Assembly: GCA_022821085.1 (NCBI GenBank)
Contig: JAJEEG010000006.1
Coordinates: 2,377,330-2,441,329, forward strand
Reading direction: 5' to 3'
From: Candidatus Latescibacterota bacterium
GTDB taxonomy: Bacteria > JAAXHH01
Length of the DNA stretch: 64,000 bases
The notes beneath the pieces were generated by a model. The model was not told the DNA's origin, did no database searches, and saw nothing but the letters and a program-made list of their open reading frames with translations. Positions 44,554 through 55,011 of this stretch are shown here, in pieces (the stretch's first letter is position 1; each line of letters opens with the position of its first letter). The position numbers were made by a program, and so were the translations under genes.

Positions 44554-44714
44554 ACGGCACCAGCCTTCCAATGTGCGCAGATCCGAACGCCAGCCACGGG
44601 CACAAGCGTTGTCAAGGGCTTGCCGAACTGAATAACACGATAAGGAAACCGGTGGAAATATCAAGGGATAATACCTCGCCGGCATACTCGATAAGGCAGC
44701 CTGATAATAACGCT

Positions 44715-44742
44715 TTGCATTTCAATTCCTCCTCGTTACAAT
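44715..44742 (+). promoter_or_regulatory. Promoter of the Ntn-hydrolase/PhyH pair
   Basis: TTGCAT (44715-44720), 16-base spacer, TACAAT (44737-44742). The expected transcript would have a leader of about 38 bases before the ATG at 44787. Confidence 0.6.
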
Positions 44743-44786
44743 GCACTGGAATCAAACCTTTAAACCCTCCAAGCAAGGACTAAGCA

Positions 44787-47399: not shown

Positions 47400-47762
47400 T
47401 CAGGTTAGCTTCAATACGGTCAAGATGACCCCCATGCAGGAAACAACAACGCCGATTGTCCATCGAAATTGCGTATTCGAGTGGGCAAAAATGTCCGTTC
47501 TCATCCGTTCCATGTCCGTTCTCAGTCTCCCCAGATCATCCCGTGTTGCGAATGCCTTTAGATCATCCCGCGTAGCGAATGCCTTCAGATCGTCACGGGT
47601 GACGACATGCTCCAGTTTCTCCTCGATCCTTGTCAAGCGGATCTTGATATTGTCCGAACTGTAGTACAGATCGTCTTCGATCCGCCTGATGGATTCCGCG
47701 ATTTCCCGTGAACTCATCCCGGCATTGTCGGTTGGGCGTTTGCGTTTTTGATCATTCATCAT
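47400..47762 (-). CDS. Membrane-anchored nonad-repeat coiled-coil protein A (3 repeats)
   Basis: A 120-residue protein: basic N-terminus, short helical head (residues 18-53, SSREIAESIRRIEDDLYYSSD), three 9-residue repeats of the form xTRDDLKAF (54-80), a linker, and a C-terminal membrane helix (101-117). The repeat unit resembles the nonads with MATKDD-like cores that form beta-layers in alpha/beta coiled coils. It lacks a signal peptide, so it should be tail-anchored with the stalk in the cytoplasm. Its last 77 bases are almost identical to those of the 7-repeat paralogue, which shows recent duplication. AAGGA precedes the ATG pair at 47762/47759. Function unknown. Confidence 0.72.
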   Translation of the reverse strand: MMNDQKRKRPTDNAGMSSREIAESIRRIEDDLYYSSDNIKIRLTRIEEKLEHVVTRDDLKAFATRDDLKAFATRDDLGRLRTDMERMRTDIFAHSNTQFRWTIGVVVSCMGVILTVLKLT

Positions 47763-47844
47763 GTCTATCCTTGAGCTATGTGTATCTGCCTGGAACCGTG
47801 TTTTTATACAACGCAGCCTCCGATTTGTGTTTGTAAGTGACGAT

Positions 47845-48141
47845 TCATGGCAGTAACCATTTGAACGCCGCAACGGTAGCCCCCGCCAGTGCGAGCATAC
47901 TACCAATAGACCACCTGATCATACTGTTCTTCATGTCTGCAAGGTCTTCTCGGGTGGCGAATACCTTCAGATCATCACGCGTGGCGAATACCTTCAGATC
48001 ATCACGCGTGGCGTATGCCTTCAGGTCATCTCGGGTGGTTAAATGCTCCAGCTTTTCTTCTATCCGCTTGATGGGCGCCGCGGTTCCGCGTCGACTTGAC
48101 GCTGCATTGCCGGTTCGGCGTTTGTTTTTTGAGTGGTTCAT
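47845..48141 (-). CDS. Membrane-anchored nonad-repeat coiled-coil protein B (4 repeats)
   Basis: A 98-residue paralogue without the N-terminal helical head: the sequence goes from a basic tail (residues 1-24) directly into IKRIEEKLEHL and four nonads (35-70; three TRDD and one TRED), then a membrane helix (77-95). The repeat residues are the same family as its neighbours but the membrane helix differs in sequence. GGGAGGG lies upstream with longer than usual spacing. Probably in one operon with the other two, of which it is the middle member. Function unknown. Confidence 0.68.
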   Translation of the reverse strand: MNHSKNKRRTGNAASSRRGTAAPIKRIEEKLEHLTTRDDLKAYATRDDLKVFATRDDLKVFATREDLADMKNSMIRWSIGSMLALAGATVAAFKWLLP

Positions 48142-48176
48142 TTGCGTCTAGAGGCCCTCCCAATAACTCTGTGTGT

Positions 48177-48623
48177 TCAGGTTAGCTTCAATACGGCCAA
48201 GATGACCCCCATGCAGGAAACAACAACGCCGATTGTCCATCGAAATTGCGTGTGAACTAGGGCGATCATTTCCGTTCTCAATTCTGCAAGGTCTTCCCGC
48301 GTGGCAAATGCCTTCAGATCGTCCTTTGTGGCAAATGCCCTCAGATCGTCCTTTGTGGCAAATGCCTTCAGATCGTCACGCGTGACGAACGCTTTCAGAT
48401 CATCACGGGTGGCAAATGCTTTCAGGTCGTCACGGGTGGCAAATGCCTTCAGGTCGTCACGTGTGACGACATGCTCCAGCTTCTCCTCGATCCTGGTCAG
48501 GCGGATCTTGATGTTGTCCGACCCGAAATAAAGATCATCTTCGATCCGCCTGATGGACGCCTCGATTTCCCCTGAACTCATCCCGGTTCCGCCGGGTGGT
48601 CGTTTGCTTTTTGGATTGTTCAT
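48177..48623 (-). CDS. Membrane-anchored nonad-repeat coiled-coil protein C (7 repeats)
   Basis: A 148-residue protein with the same head (SSGEIEASIRRIEDDLYFGSD), seven nonads (53-115; TRDD x4, TKDD x2, TRED x1), linker and C-terminal membrane helix (129-145). The head and tail sequences are close to protein A, but four extra nonads lengthen the stalk. It is the first of the three genes in transcription order, with AAGGA upstream. The clean 27-bp unit length means copy number can change without breaking the frame. Function unknown; scaffolding or spacing at the membrane is a guess. Confidence 0.74.
   Translation of the reverse strand: MNNPKSKRPPGGTGMSSGEIEASIRRIEDDLYFGSDNIKIRLTRIEEKLEHVVTRDDLKAFATRDDLKAFATRDDLKAFVTRDDLKAFATKDDLRAFATKDDLKAFATREDLAELRTEMIALVHTQFRWTIGVVVSCMGVILAVLKLT
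48279..48467 (-). repeat. 27-bp tandem repeat, seven copies, coding for nonads
   Basis: In-frame repeats inside gene C; three- and four-copy versions are at 47523-47603 and 47932-48039 in genes A and B. Neighbouring units differ at a few third positions. No spacers, so this is not a CRISPR array. Confidence 0.85.
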
Positions 48624-49011
48624 CGCACCTGTCCTTTTGATTTGGATGGAGATTCATTGATGGTACCGATTTGCACTCGGGACGCAGACAACGCTTCGGG
48701 TTGCATTCTGCTCTCGGATTCGCTCGTACCGAAGTCCACCTTCGGGATTCGGAGCCGCGAATCCTCCGGATCATCGCCTTATAATTGTTTAAGTAGTAGC
48801 GCGCTCGAGTTATCTCGTGTTTTACTTTCTTCAAAGGCGGTTGGCTCGGCAGAAATCATGTTTGTGATCATCTCTTCGCATCACAAATACGATATTTACT
48901 TACTATAATTTAAATCTCACTTTGATTAATATAAATTCTACTTGCGTTTATATTAACATTGGTTCATCTTTTAATCGATAATGAAAAAGATCAACGAATC
49001 GTGGACATACT
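48624..49011. other. AT-rich intergenic region between divergent operons
   Basis: 388 bases with no supported gene. The right half (48880-49011) is strongly AT-rich and should contain the promoter of the DUF2089 operon and perhaps that of the repeat-protein operon on the other strand; I could not pick a convincing pair of hexamers. Confidence 0.4.
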
Positions 49012-49365
49012 ATGACCCGCGACATCGATTTGAATAACGACACTGATCGGATACCGAACCCGCGTTTACCTGCCCAATGCCCGGGCTGTGCCGCGGCCTT
49101 GAAGGTCACCCGCCTGGACTGCACCGAGTGCGATACGGCCGTGATCGGCGGTTTTCACCTACCGCCGTTAGCCCGGCTTGCCCCGGAGGATCAGGCCTTC
49201 GTGCTCTGCTTCCTCCAGACCGGCGGTAATCTCAAGGACATGGCCGAACGCTACGGCGTCTCCTACCCCACGCTGCGGAACCGCCTCGATGACCTGGTCG
49301 AACATCTGGTTTCGCTGGCGGCGGACCGACCAGAGGAAAAGCTCGGCGAAGCAAGCAGCTTGTGA
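49012..49365 (+). CDS. DUF2089 zinc-ribbon/HTH-like protein
   Basis: A 117-residue protein. A zinc ribbon (C23, C26, C37, C40) is followed by PPLARLAPEDQAFVLCFLQTGGNLKDMAERYGVSYPTLRNRLDDL, the conserved core of DUF2089 and similar to a helix-turn-helix. Probably a DNA-binding regulator; target unknown but most likely its own operon. It leads an operon with two membrane-associated proteins. Confidence 0.85.
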   Translation: MTRDIDLNNDTDRIPNPRLPAQCPGCAAALKVTRLDCTECDTAVIGGFHLPPLARLAPEDQAFVLCFLQTGGNLKDMAERYGVSYPTLRNRLDDLVEHLVSLAADRPEEKLGEASSL

Positions 49366-49416: not shown

Positions 49417-50436
49417 GTGTACGCTTCCCACACCCACGATCCCCACACACGCACGACTCCCGTCCGGCGCATGTGGCGCACGTGGCTGATTAATCCTTTC
49501 CACTACCTGGCCGGCGGCCCGGCGCTGGCCTGGGGACTGGCATGCATCGTCTTGACAGCCTGGCTTGGCGGCGCATTCGATTACCGTTACACGGGCACGC
49601 TTTCCTTCCAGCTTTCGACGCCGACGCCAATCTGGCTCGCCATAACACAGGGCCTTACGGCATGGATCGTACCCAGCGCCCTGCTTTACCTTGCCGGCCA
49701 CGGTCTCAGCCGTAGCCGCGTTCGCCTCATCGACGTCCTCGGCACCCAGGCCCTGGCCCGGGCGCCTGGTCTGCTCGTGGCGCTTATCGTGGTGTCGCCA
49801 CCCTTTCGCGATCTCACGGACTCATTGATCGCCCAGGGCGCCACGCACTTCTCGGTCGCACAGCTTGCCGCCCTCACTGCGGTAGCTACGGTGATGGTGT
49901 TGCTGCTGATCTGGATCGTGCTCCTTATGTACCGTGCCTTCGCCGTTTCGTGCAATGTCACCGGTGGCTGGGCGATTACCGTATTTGTCGTCGTGATCGC
50001 TTTGAGCGAGGTCGCCACCGGTGCGACGGGACAATTTCTTCAGGGCACCGTCGCCCCTCAGACCGTTGCCAGCGTGCCCGTCCAGTCCGATCAACGCCAG
50101 CTGGCCGCGCAACTGGCCACACGGATCCTCGAGGGCCACGAACAGGGCCGCTTTGAAGCCCTTGGACCAGAGGAGGCCACCGAGGAATTTCGCAATGGTT
50201 TCACTCCGGTAAGCCAGCGCCAGAACCATCAGACCATACGGCAGCTGTTCGGCGCCTTCGAGGGGCTGGACTACATCGAAACCCGATTCATGGACAGCCA
50301 ACCGCACCTGCTGATCCATCGCTTCAAAGGCCGGTACGGGGCTGCGTCCCGGTCGCTCGAAGTGCGCGTCGTCCTCGACCGGGACGGCAAGCTGGCGGGT
50401 CTGTGGATCAAGCCCTGGCAGGAGCAAATGCAATGA
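49417..50436 (+). CDS. YIP1-like membrane protein with C-terminal soluble domain
   Basis: A 339-residue inner-membrane protein with about five helices (residues 33-55, 72-95, 110-128, 145-170, 180-205), in the style of the YIP1 family, followed by a soluble domain (about 225-339) similar to DUF3887-type folds (LATRILEGHEQGRFEAL ... VVLDRDGKLAGLWIKP). The GTG start has AAGGA upstream. It overlaps the next gene by ATGA. DUF2089 followed by a membrane protein of this type recurs in other genomes as I recall; the role is not known. Confidence 0.72.
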   Translation: MYASHTHDPHTRTTPVRRMWRTWLINPFHYLAGGPALAWGLACIVLTAWLGGAFDYRYTGTLSFQLSTPTPIWLAITQGLTAWIVPSALLYLAGHGLSRSRVRLIDVLGTQALARAPGLLVALIVVSPPFRDLTDSLIAQGATHFSVAQLAALTAVATVMVLLLIWIVLLMYRAFAVSCNVTGGWAITVFVVVIALSEVATGATGQFLQGTVAPQTVASVPVQSDQRQLAAQLATRILEGHEQGRFEALGPEEATEEFRNGFTPVSQRQNHQTIRQLFGAFEGLDYIETRFMDSQPHLLIHRFKGRYGAASRSLEVRVVLDRDGKLAGLWIKPWQEQMQ

Positions 50437-50885
50437 TAGCTTATCGCCATACCCAGTTCGGCACGGTCAACGTCGCCATCATTATCGCCATCGCGCCGTT
50501 GACCTTTCTGCCCGCGTGGATGGCCGGAGCGGCACCGATCGCCTGGTTGATCCTGATTTTCCTGCTGGGGATCCTGATGCTGTTCTACAACCTGACCGTC
50601 ACGATCGATGGCCAGGACCTCCGCATCAGTTTCGGCATCGGCCTGATCCGGAAGCGGTTCCCCCTGGATCAGATCGACTCCTGCGGGCCGGTCAGAAACT
50701 CCTGGCTCTATGGTTGGGGGATCCGGCTTACGCCCCGGGGCTGGCTGTACAACGTATCGGGACTGGAGGCGGTGGAACTGAAGATGAAGAGCGGCAAGAT
50801 CTGCCGCATCGGGACGGATGAGCCCAAGGTCCTGGCCGCCGCGGTCCAGGAGGCGTTGGACTGCTCGAATTCAGCGTCGCAATGA
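50433..50885 (+). CDS. PH-like membrane-associated protein
   Basis: A 150-residue protein: two close membrane helices (about 12-50) then a small beta-rich domain (IDGQDLRISFGIGLIRKRFPLDQIDSCGPV, followed by a hinge and GLEAVELKMKSGKICRIGTDEPKVLAAAVQEAL), as in bacterial PH-domain proteins. The ATG overlaps the previous stop as ATGA and GGAG lies upstream, so it is translationally coupled. Possibly a partner of the YIP1-like protein. Function unknown. Confidence 0.75.
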   Translation: MIAYRHTQFGTVNVAIIIAIAPLTFLPAWMAGAAPIAWLILIFLLGILMLFYNLTVTIDGQDLRISFGIGLIRKRFPLDQIDSCGPVRNSWLYGWGIRLTPRGWLYNVSGLEAVELKMKSGKICRIGTDEPKVLAAAVQEALDCSNSASQ

Positions 50886-51013: not shown

Positions 51014-51199
51014 CTACGACTTCTCTCGCAAGATTGCCTTGATTTCAGCCACGTCGGACTTCAACTCGGATACGTCGGATTCGATTTTTTCCAAGCTGCC
51101 TTTGATTTCGCTGACAAGGTTGTTCGTTTCGGTCCACAGATTCTGGATGTTGCCGAACACGTTTGCGGATCGACCGAAATTCTTAGAAAACCAGTTCAT
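51014..51199 (-). CDS. Small coiled-coil protein (61 aa)
   Basis: A 61-residue soluble protein; residues 25-58 (TNNLVSEIKGSLEKIESD and then VSELKSDVAEIKAIL) form regular heptads. GAGG seven bases before the ATG makes translation likely. Third gene of a minus-strand trio of tiny proteins (51419-51670, 51227-51406, this one). No known function; could oligomerise with the tail-anchored protein two genes upstream. Confidence 0.6.
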   Translation of the reverse strand: MNWFSKNFGRSANVFGNIQNLWTETNNLVSEIKGSLEKIESDVSELKSDVAEIKAILREKS

Positions 51200-51418: not shown

Positions 51419-51670
51419 TTAACCCCGCCACAGTTGAAATATGATCGTAATCAATCCGCCGATAATCGCAGTACCCAGTCCGTAAACAACTCTTCGCAAG
51501 AATCGAAACTCCGCATCAAACTCCGACATCCTTTTGTAGGAATGGTCGATCAATCTGTAAAGGCTGACTTCGGTTTTCTCAAGACCGAATAACCTGCTTT
51601 TTACATTCTCGTCTTTGAAAAACACCTCATCCAGAAGCATATCTGTGTCTCGTGACTTACCTGTGTTCAT
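51419..51670 (-). CDS. Tail-anchored coiled-coil protein, XhlA-like (83 aa)
   Basis: An 83-residue protein with a helical N-terminal region (about 12-58) and a C-terminal membrane helix (61-80, VVYGLGTAIIGGLITIIFQL). The order 'coiled coil, then RxVxG-containing helix' resembles XhlA-type phage lysis accessories and other small tail-anchored proteins. No other phage genes are present, so a lysis role is not supported. First gene of the trio; the next gene's ribosome site overlaps its stop. Confidence 0.6.
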   Translation of the reverse strand: MNTGKSRDTDMLLDEVFFKDENVKSRLFGLEKTEVSLYRLIDHSYKRMSEFDAEFRFLRRVVYGLGTAIIGGLITIIFQLWRG

Positions 51671-52094: not shown

Positions 52095-52331
52095 GTGCCA
52101 AAAGTCAGCGCCAAGCGACAGATCACGCTTCCGGCTGATCAGTGCCGTTTAGTTGGCATCGAACCTGGCGACGAGTGCCAGAGCTTCGTGGCCGACGGCC
52201 GCATTACTATAGTCCGTCAAGAGCCCGGCAGCGCCTGGGGATGCCTGGCGCATCTTGAAGGTGATCCGAAAGTTTCAGAAGTGGAATCGCGCCAGGACGC
52301 GATAGAAGGAAAGCGGGACCAATCGCCTTGA
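52095..52331 (+). CDS. vapB: AbrB/MazE-type antitoxin (VapB-like)
   Basis: A 78-residue protein starting with GTG. Residues 1-47 form a swapped-hairpin AbrB DNA-binding domain (VSAKRQITLPADQCRLVGIEPGDECQSFV); the C-terminal tail, rich in charged residues, should wrap the toxin. Overlaps the toxin gene by four bases (TTGA), typical for vapBC. Confidence 0.88.
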   Translation: MPKVSAKRQITLPADQCRLVGIEPGDECQSFVADGRITIVRQEPGSAWGCLAHLEGDPKVSEVESRQDAIEGKRDQSP

Positions 52332-52729
52332 TCGCAATCGACACCAATGTCCTGCTACGCTATCTCCTGAGAGACGACGAGGGACAGGCCGAACGTGCGC
52401 GGCGCGTGATTGAAGGCGGCGAGCGCGTGCTCATTACGGACGTGGTACTGGCAGAAACGGTGTGGACGTTAGCCGGTCGCCGGTATCGCGCGACCCGGAC
52501 AGACCTGATCGAACTAATCAATAGCCTGCTGCAAGATGCGAATCTGCGCTTTGAGGATGAAGAAGCGGTCTGGAGCGCCCTGCAGGCCTATCGCAGGACG
52601 GAGGCGGACTTCGCCGACGCCCTGATCGTGTGCAAGGCCGAAAAGCAGTCTGCCGAGGGCGACGGGTTGAGCGCTGTATACACCTTCGATGACGTCGCCT
52701 TGCAGTTGCACGGTACCGCAAAGCCGTAG
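52328..52729 (+). CDS. vapC: PIN-domain ribonuclease toxin (VapC)
   Basis: A 133-residue PIN-domain RNase. The acidic active-site residues are D5 (AIDTNVLLRYL), E43 (LAETVW), D94 and D97 (EADFADAL). VapC toxins cleave tRNA or rRNA. Starts with TTG overlapping the antitoxin stop. Intact as far as can be seen. Confidence 0.9.
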   Translation: MIAIDTNVLLRYLLRDDEGQAERARRVIEGGERVLITDVVLAETVWTLAGRRYRATRTDLIELINSLLQDANLRFEDEEAVWSALQAYRRTEADFADALIVCKAEKQSAEGDGLSAVYTFDDVALQLHGTAKP

Positions 52730-52937: not shown

Positions 52938-54932
52938 CTAGACCGCGTCAACTCCATATACCAGAGTCGATTGTGATAATACCTCATCTATCACATATTT
53001 CTTGAAATCCGTGGGATCTGTAAAGCATCGGAAACCTGCCCTGTTTGCAAGAAGGACGACCTCTGTAGGCTCGTTAAGGAGTACGGCCACCCGTTGGCTG
53101 AGTTCCTGTTGAATACCATAGGGCCACGCAAGGTCGAATACCGCTTTCTGTTCACCGGTTGAATCATCAGCAAAGTCGTATGCCAGGATGCCTCGAGGAA
53201 GCCCTTGATCTTCAACCCACTTTTGGAGCTCTTCCAATACCAGTTCCTCCACATCACCAGAAATACCACCAAGCACTTCGACTTGGCTCACGGGTTCTGG
53301 ACTACTTACTGTCGATGGCCGGCTTTCCAGCCAGCGGGTATCACCATGGAGTAGGTCTGTAAGTCTTCGATTCGTTTCTTCCGCAAGCAAACTTCTTCTC
53401 GCCTCAAGAAAATCGAGGTAATTTACCACCTTCCAAAGATCCGGATCTGATGGGATCCACTGCGATGCTAGCGATCCCGGTTGTGCTGCTTCAACTTCCG
53501 GGAAGTAGTTCTCCGGTAATCGGTCACTGATTGCAAGGTTTGTATCTTTAGTCAGGAAGCAGAAATTGGCTAGTGCATTGACTTCAGGCCGGTTGTAATT
53601 GGCGCGATATAGACGTGATTTTGGGAAAATATGGTGAACTTCCAAGGTATTCATATGCCCCAATAGGCCGGCTTTGAGTGGCAAACCGGTGCCCCAGTCC
53701 CTGGACTCACCCATGCGGGTTAGCATGTAAAGCACAGGGTAAAACCGCGCTCCTAGACTCCATCCGTGAAAATGTGCTGGTTCTACATCAAGACTACCGT
53801 GCCAAACTCGAAGCTGTTCGATCAACCTGTCCAACCCTCCAGAAATCTGCTCGATGGCGGAAAGGTCTTGATCAATAACTGACTCTGTCGAGCCAGAGAA
53901 TCTACCCCACATGCCCGACTGTAGATACCAGAACAGCAGTTTGTCACGCTCGTACTCATTCAGGGGTTCGTTACGCTGATCCAGGTAACGGACCATCACG
54001 GGAATGGCGAATCTTCCGAATAAAACACGATCATGATCCAGACCCAGGCGACCGCTTATCATGTTGAGGGCCTTATCTATGTTCTTGGTTGCCTTGGCAA
54101 GACCATCCTTGATCTCCTGAGTGCCTTTGTCATGAAGGTAGATGAATCTGGCTTCCCCGGTGACCACGGTATTCACCGACCTGAGAAGCCAATCTAGATC
54201 GAAGTCGAAACCTGCATCAGACCAGGTCTGGAGTTGGTTTTTCATCTCACCTCGAGCCTCGGGCCATTCGGCACAGATTTTGGCCAGTGCCAGATCACCC
54301 TTGGACAACTTAGTACCACCGCTGTTTACCCGATTAAAGATATCGACGACTACATCCAGTGACTTATCAGCACCTGTAACTTCGTCGATATGCAATTCGA
54401 TATTGATGATTGAGAGTAGTCTGGACAGTCGAGACACATAGTCGCCCAACCGCTGTGACTTATCAGGAAGGGCTGACAAACGTGTGATGTATTCCCCCAT
54501 TCCGTCATTACTCTTTGCCATCAACGCCATAAACTCGGATACGTCAATCCACAACGCGTCATCAGCCATCCTCATCGGTTGATAGAAAGCGAAAATCTCG
54601 TCTTCAAGATGAAAGTAAAGACCAGTAAATGTCTTCTCGTTACCGTCGAAGAACGCTGGGGCGTGTCCGCGCACTACGCCGTATAGAGACGTCATGCGCT
54701 GTTGGCCGTCCAGAAGGAGCTTTACTACACCCGGCGCCAATTGGCTTTCTCCACGGTGGTCGGCACCCTCGGATGCAGTCACCCACACCAACAGGCCTCC
54801 GACCGGATGGCCACGATACAGAGAGTCAAACAAACCACGGACTTGGTCTCGATTCCAGACGTATCCACGCTGAAACTCGGGCAACGCGATATGACCGTTG
54901 TCAATATGGTCGAGTATGGTGGAGATTTTCAT
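52938..54932 (-). CDS. GmrSD-type DUF262/DUF1524 (ParB-like plus HNH) nuclease protein
   Basis: A 664-residue protein. The N-terminal DUF262 domain has PEFQRGYVW (18-26), DGQQR (75-79, the NTP-binding/hydrolysis signature) and NRVNSGGTKLSKGDL (200-214). The C-terminal part carries an HNH motif, EVHHIFPKS (431-439) with N452 and N456. This architecture is that of GmrSD type IV restriction enzymes, which cut modified phage DNA, and of SspE/BrxU-like defence proteins. An additional region after residue 540 is not assignable. The gene is less GC-rich than its neighbours. Stand-alone; no modification genes are nearby. Start chosen at 54932 with AAAGG upstream. Confidence 0.85.
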   Translation of the reverse strand: MKISTILDHIDNGHIALPEFQRGYVWNRDQVRGLFDSLYRGHPVGGLLVWVTASEGADHRGESQLAPGVVKLLLDGQQRMTSLYGVVRGHAPAFFDGNEKTFTGLYFHLEDEIFAFYQPMRMADDALWIDVSEFMALMAKSNDGMGEYITRLSALPDKSQRLGDYVSRLSRLLSIINIELHIDEVTGADKSLDVVVDIFNRVNSGGTKLSKGDLALAKICAEWPEARGEMKNQLQTWSDAGFDFDLDWLLRSVNTVVTGEARFIYLHDKGTQEIKDGLAKATKNIDKALNMISGRLGLDHDRVLFGRFAIPVMVRYLDQRNEPLNEYERDKLLFWYLQSGMWGRFSGSTESVIDQDLSAIEQISGGLDRLIEQLRVWHGSLDVEPAHFHGWSLGARFYPVLYMLTRMGESRDWGTGLPLKAGLLGHMNTLEVHHIFPKSRLYRANYNRPEVNALANFCFLTKDTNLAISDRLPENYFPEVEAAQPGSLASQWIPSDPDLWKVVNYLDFLEARRSLLAEETNRRLTDLLHGDTRWLESRPSTVSSPEPVSQVEVLGGISGDVEELVLEELQKWVEDQGLPRGILAYDFADDSTGEQKAVFDLAWPYGIQQELSQRVAVLLNEPTEVVLLANRAGFRCFTDPTDFKKYVIDEVLSQSTLVYGVDAV

Positions 54933-55011
54933 TCGTGAAATGCCTTTCGTGTATTTGCTTGAGTACCCATCTACCCAAATCAATTTCCTGTCGTACCGAC
55001 GACGTAGGCAC

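Follow-up and report, generated by a model that had tools for sequence, protein, structure and literature searches.

Three adjacent genes on the minus strand of a 64,000-nucleotide stretch of a Candidatus Latescibacterota genome (the window, from genome G000) encode small tail-anchored proteins, here called A, B and C, in which a head is joined to a C-terminal membrane helix by a stalk of tandem nine-residue units (Table 1). Comparison of the sequences establishes this architecture, together with a constrained reading frame, changes of stalk length by whole units and a kinship to stalks of solved structure. On balance, we take the proteins to be spacers of the inner membrane, with an oligomeric alpha/beta stalk, a cytoplasmic head and a length set by the gain and loss of units along with recombination.

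Table 1. Features of the array and of the adjoining DUF2089 cassette (positions in the window)
Feature	Position	Strand	Remarks
Gene A, tail-anchored protein	47400..47762	minus	119-120 aa, 3 nonads then two RTDxxxx heptads
Membrane helix of A, C-terminal	47403..47459	minus	hydropathy
Nonad block of A	47523..47603	minus	three units
Head of A	47604..47759	minus	52 residues, close to head of C
Gene B, tail-anchored protein, shortened head	47845..48141	minus	98 aa, 4 nonads
Membrane helix of B, C-terminal	47851..47907	minus	residues 79-97; hydropathy
Nonad block of B	47932..48039	minus	four units, residues 35-70
Gene C, tail-anchored protein	48177..48623	minus	148 aa, 7 nonads
Membrane helix of C, C-terminal	48180..48236	minus	residues 130-148; hydropathy; AF2 helix 100-147
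Nonad block of C	48279..48467	minus	seven units, residues 53-115
Head of C	48468..48623	minus	residues 1-52; conserved in genus
Intergenic region, divergent	48624..49011		promoter-like matches 4 vs 2.3 expected in shuffles, weak
DUF2089 zinc-ribbon/HTH regulator, divergent neighbour	49012..49365	+	adjacent wherever visible
Mem1, multi-pass membrane protein, DUF2089 cassette	49417..50436	+	
Mem2, membrane protein, DUF2089 cassette	50403..50885	+	G008 deletion ends inside

Read along the minus strand, C comes first, followed after 35 bp by B and after a further 82 bp by A. The units, of the form xTRDDLKAF, stand in exact register at a spacing of nine residues (seven in C, four in B and three in A), and TRF places 27-bp arrays at 47532-47591, 47954-48038 and 48301-48465, both of which bear out the three genes and their repeat counts as given in an earlier, sequence-only reading of this DNA. 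A, B and C are the only ones among the 308 window ORFs of at least 60 aa to have at least three in-register units, and 20 residue shuffles of each of the 308 gave none. The earlier reading had also assigned a C-terminal membrane helix to each protein, and a hydrophobic 19-mer with a mean Kyte-Doolittle value of 1.6-2.1 does lie at most one residue from the C-terminus in all three; equally confirmed are a head common to A and C, which spans 52 residues, and the near identity of these two genes over their last 77 bp, where there are two differences. The head of B starts in a similar way but lacks 18 residues, and its anchor also differs. For A the start is at 47762 or 47759 (ATG ATG), in favour of which an upstream TTG was rejected, and Shine-Dalgarno-like stretches can be read by eye 5' of C and A.

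Are these frames translated? Changes in the heads between relatives are mostly synonymous, with a mean dN/dS of about 0.14 in C and of about 0.21 in both A and B (in B from three pairs), so that the frames are translated and the heads of all three genes, judged by this ratio, are under purifying selection. This constraint answers the concern, raised in the earlier reading, that codon statistics might prove to be non-coding.

Eight other genomes of the same Latescibacterota genus carry the array in synteny (one genome per species was compared, and orthology is taken as synteny plus similarity of head and anchor), with a conserved order of CBM9-like gene, array and DUF2089 cassette. A profile of the head found members in 10 of 12 genomes of the genus but no member in four genomes from the rest of the phylum, and by this search the head family is found only in this genus. 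Beside the seven, four and three units of C, B and A in G000, there are five, three and four in G006 and three of each in G010; G002 has five in C and one in A, G003 six in C and one in A, and G007 and G011 have two in the first gene. In G001 a single gene combines the head of C, 13 units and the anchor of B, and of A only the 3' end remains, which is consistent with recombination between units. Across the genus C has 2-7 units, A 1-4 and B 3-4, in addition to the 13-unit C/B fusion. In the nonad genes the units are spaced by nine without exception and the first of them starts at residue 53 in every case, or at residue 35 in B, so that the lengths differ by whole 27-bp steps. Homologous arrays with differing repeat numbers are therefore present in the relatives, and the copy-number change in 27-bp units that keeps the frame, as proposed earlier, is borne out. 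Units 2 and 3 of B in the window are identical in DNA, and B is shorter by one unit in G006 and G010; together these findings point to a recent duplication. Several of the assemblies are fragmented and probably metagenomic, and repeats in them may be mis-assembled, although the average difference between units of one gene is 6-11 of their 27 positions.

How much can the length of the stalk matter? Stalks among the relatives range from 13 to 121 residues while head and anchor are kept, so that it is the ends and not the length that are conserved; with so much variation, hardly any importance can attach to a given length. An explanation that we regard as possible though doubtful is that the repeats are products of slippage whose number has no role, the stalk being a neutral linker between heads and anchors that do matter. 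In its favour, the number of units differs between G002 and G003 although the heads of their C proteins are separated by a dS of only about 0.03, there are relatives with one unit or none, and G008 appears to have lost the array. The periodicity, however, is strictly 9, 11 or 7 residues, from which it seems that a coiled-coil rod is needed, though perhaps not one of a given length.

The periods of 11 and 7 are found at the same locus. In G004 head and anchor are of the same kind but are joined by a stalk of 11-residue units, IATREDMEKLR, with seven copies at a spacing of 11 in one gene and two in the other, and another gene of the family at this locus carries the hendecad MDERLSNMAIS in one copy in G004 (L015:2388-2657), five in G007 (L013:1805-2206) and nine in G011 (L121:386-919). 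The segment that follows the nonads in A varies by whole heptads of the RTDMERM type, with two or three copies. As nonads, hendecads and heptads all vary at the locus, segments of 9, 11 and 7 residues change each by their own unit. A protein with about seven near-exact NVADLKT heptads is also encoded near the array locus in G002 (L115:3768-4178). For the hendecad protein of G004, AF2 gives a single helix over residues 55-191, much of it at a pLDDT of about 90, and phmmer matches its stalk at E=6.5e-10 to 6h9l, a solved chain named 'Uncharacterized protein' with ATKED hendecads, whereas C, which uses nonads, matches this chain only at E=0.18. A Foldseek search of the PDB with the G004 hendecad model matched nothing.

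For the nonad stalk, a phmmer search of the PDB with C gave a match at E=2e-7 to 5apz, the alpha/beta coiled coil of Tcar0761, which is a trimer by crystal symmetry (Hartmann et al. 2016, PMC4786415). The two share tandem nonads and the same register, with a core in A, B and C that resembles A-T-K-[polar]-[DE]. Every unit of A, B and C has a small residue (A, V or T) followed by T, K/R, D/E and D, with mostly F in first position, to be set beside the Tcar0761-type beta-layer consensus of [aliphatic]-A-T-K-[polar]-[DE] (PMC4786415). In the published register F/V-A/V-T form beta1-beta2-beta3, R/K-D/E-D correspond to e-f-g and L-K-A to a-b-c, and the A, V or T at the second position agrees with the published preference for a small residue. 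The AF2 model of C, a monomer as all AF2 runs were of single chains, has helices that begin at residues 64, 73, 82, 91 and 100 and are interrupted at F-A-T, at a low mean pLDDT of 59. The match, the nine-residue breaks and the register support the stalk type that had been recognised from the sequence, and the model, although of low confidence, is not the monomeric random coil that had been considered as its opposite. The stalks of A, B and C would most likely be trimeric, with beta-layers in their nonads.

There are also differences. Unlike the Tcar0761 type, A, B and C are tail-anchored, have a genus-specific head and form a tandem gene array; beta1 is often F or Y, and R often replaces K. 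The Tcar0761-type relatives are DUF3782-related nonad proteins, whereas A, B and C have no DUF3782 match in Pfam. A list drawn from genome contigs has 67 ORFs with nonads or hendecads (two being those of G001 and G003), most of which are without a C-terminal membrane helix. The same layout of head, nonads and C-terminal membrane helix is found in tail-anchored proteins of Acidimicrobiia (L037, L064, L067, L070 and L086), but their head differs by eye and no array was seen among the matched ORFs, to which this comparison is confined. A comparison of the head with solved structures found no relative, and a literature search on bacterial tail-anchored repeat stalks found none with the terms used.

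Could A, B and C instead be divergent members of the CCDC90/DUF1640 family (MCUR1, CCDC90B and yeast Put6/Put7), with a head that has drifted beyond recognition? These proteins have the same order of parts, head, neck, stalk and anchor, with a C-terminal anchor and coiled-coil stalk as seen by hydropathy in A, B and C and by AF2 in C and the G004 hendecad protein, and with a beta-layer motif near the neck. Pfam gives CCDC90-like matches at E 0.007-0.014 over stalk and anchor only (16.7 bits, the cut-off being 33.5), 3 of the 29 members of the family of A, B and C match at E of at most 0.01 (best 4e-6), profile comparison with the CCDC90-like protein of the genus itself gives a probability of 95%, again over stalk and anchor only, and the hendecad relative matches 6h9l. 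Simple coiled-coil repeats can, however, converge to such similarity, and the nonads of A, B and C are multiple and tandem. Membership was rejected because the family-defining head, which is the test of it, does not match and is non-homologous by the tests made. Moreover, the same genomes have a separate CCDC90-like protein with a proper head; the paralog in G000 C1, at about 2254520-2254990 (L124:5520-5990), has expanded ATKED nonads and matches PF07798 at E=1.5e-7, just under the Pfam cut-off, and its orthologs in the genus are of variable length (133-192 aa). Descent from this family with a drifted head is in our view unlikely. Put6 and Put7, as paralogs of the CCDC90 kind, can hetero-oligomerise (PMC7519068), and by analogy A, B and C, with their nearly identical stalks, might do the same.

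Another family with a small coiled-coil protein and a C-terminal membrane helix is XhlA (PF10779), which B matches at E=4.5e-4, with 20.8 bits against a cut-off of 34.7. Sub-threshold XhlA matches extend to 4 of the 29 members of the family of A, B and C (best 2.2e-5), A matches a PHROG holin family at 2.5e-4, and C matches phrog_30808 at 2.4e-10 over the nonads only. That A, B and C are XhlA- or holin-like membrane-active proteins, either a prophage remnant or in use for lysis, is nevertheless very improbable: none of the XhlA matches reaches the curated cut-off, and the context of phage lysis is absent, with no holin, endolysin or phage gene recognised near A, B and C. Viral contigs searched with the protein and the head profile held no relatives, and a phage origin was rejected on this ground and on the lack of phage genes nearby.

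On which side of the membrane would the stalk lie? The absence of an N-terminal signal together with a helix at the extreme C-terminus makes a tail-anchored protein N-in, and as A, B and C combine the two, this topology is predicted for them. That the stalks are N-out and act as spacers in the periplasm or at the cell surface, in the manner of short adhesin stalks, is suggested by the frequency of beta-layer coiled coils in such stalks (PMC4786415), but we think it improbable given that there is no signal peptide and that the only hydrophobic segment is C-terminal. Trimeric autotransporter adhesins are marked by a signal peptide and an outer-membrane anchor domain; A, B and C have no N-terminal hydrophobic segment and no Pfam match to such a domain.

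The neighbours of the array are CBM9-like, PhyH, DUF2089 and membrane genes. The DUF2089 cassette adjoins the array wherever this is visible, in eight genomes including G000; in G011 it is split over two contigs. DUF2089 proteins have zinc-ribbon, HTH and SHOCT-like parts and occur in lia/PSP-like membrane-stress neighbourhoods (PMC11237479), and because of these contexts a role of A, B and C in membrane-linked stress sensing is, by analogy, plausible and no more; the link may be mere adjacency. In G008 both flanks are 14 bp apart, the array, DUF2089 and Mem1 being absent and the gap ending inside Mem2. As the other genomes with a readable locus carry the array, deletion is the simplest reading of this state, and the array is at the least dispensable in the G008 lineage or missing from its assembly.

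The sequence-only reading had counted six small genes for proteins with coiled coils or repeats from 47 to 52 kb and had taken them to suggest a physical system. Such genes are indeed present, but their count is nearer five (A, B, C, 51014-51199 and 51419-51670), and the idea of a system is weakened, the 83-aa gene at 51419-51670 being doubtfully related and an N-anchored coiled-coil gene failing to track the array. The former was rejected as a clear family member at an hhalign probability of only 17%; in G011 a head-family gene lies directly 5' of a truncated copy of it (L130:5258-5694). The latter encodes a small protein (MSRDxWAFGAQIITA...) with an N-terminal membrane helix and a C-terminal coil, and was rejected as an obligate partner, since G008 has it without the array, while it is lacking from G000, G001 and G004, which do have the array. 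It occurs at L033:1141-1380, L034:1141-1380, L026:1284-1502, L118:4106-4393, L119:4201-4473, L121:4554-4841 and L156:7278-7565, and is absent from the window (unaligned gap 44554-44785). In L026, L033 and L034 it directly follows a head-only paralog, and in several relatives its distance from the array is about 3 kb. Further along the window are a MazE-like and PIN-domain pair (52095-52729), present in several relatives and unaligned in G001, and a GmrSD_N restriction-like gene (52938-54983), aligned in G001 and absent from G002 and G003, where its flanks are conserved.

If A, B and C are inner-membrane spacers, the C-terminal helix would be embedded in the inner membrane, the nonads of the stalk would assemble into an alpha/beta coiled coil of several chains, most likely three, and the head, conserved at the N-terminus, would point into the cytoplasm and may there bind either a partner or further heads of its own kind. 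How long the stalk is would depend on whole units being added or lost in frame and on unequal recombination of adjacent genes. Head and anchor would be retained through this and length would not, and one cell could present heads at several distances from the membrane. Through the divergent DUF2089 cassette these might be connected to membrane-linked stress sensing. A further step, which we put forward as speculative and rather unlikely, would be to see in the locus a set of membrane-distance rulers, in which head and anchor are maintained by selection and the rod is continually remade by in-frame recombination, even to the point of replacing an alpha/beta rod of nonads by an all-alpha rod of hendecads, and each lineage shows the same heads at a mix of distances of its own.

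Alpha/beta coiled coils are a rare type of fibre, known from few structures. The locus provides a natural series of 1 to 13 units with conserved ends, together with a relative that has hendecads in place of nonads. New here are the syntenic array in eight genomes, the changes by whole 27-bp units, the 13-unit fusion, the hendecad stalk of G004, the whole-heptad variation in A and the apparent loss of the array by deletion in one genome. Can beta-layer fibres and ordinary helical coiled coils replace each other in a living system, does the length of the rod matter, and how does one kind of fibre evolve into the other? With this series, such questions may become testable.
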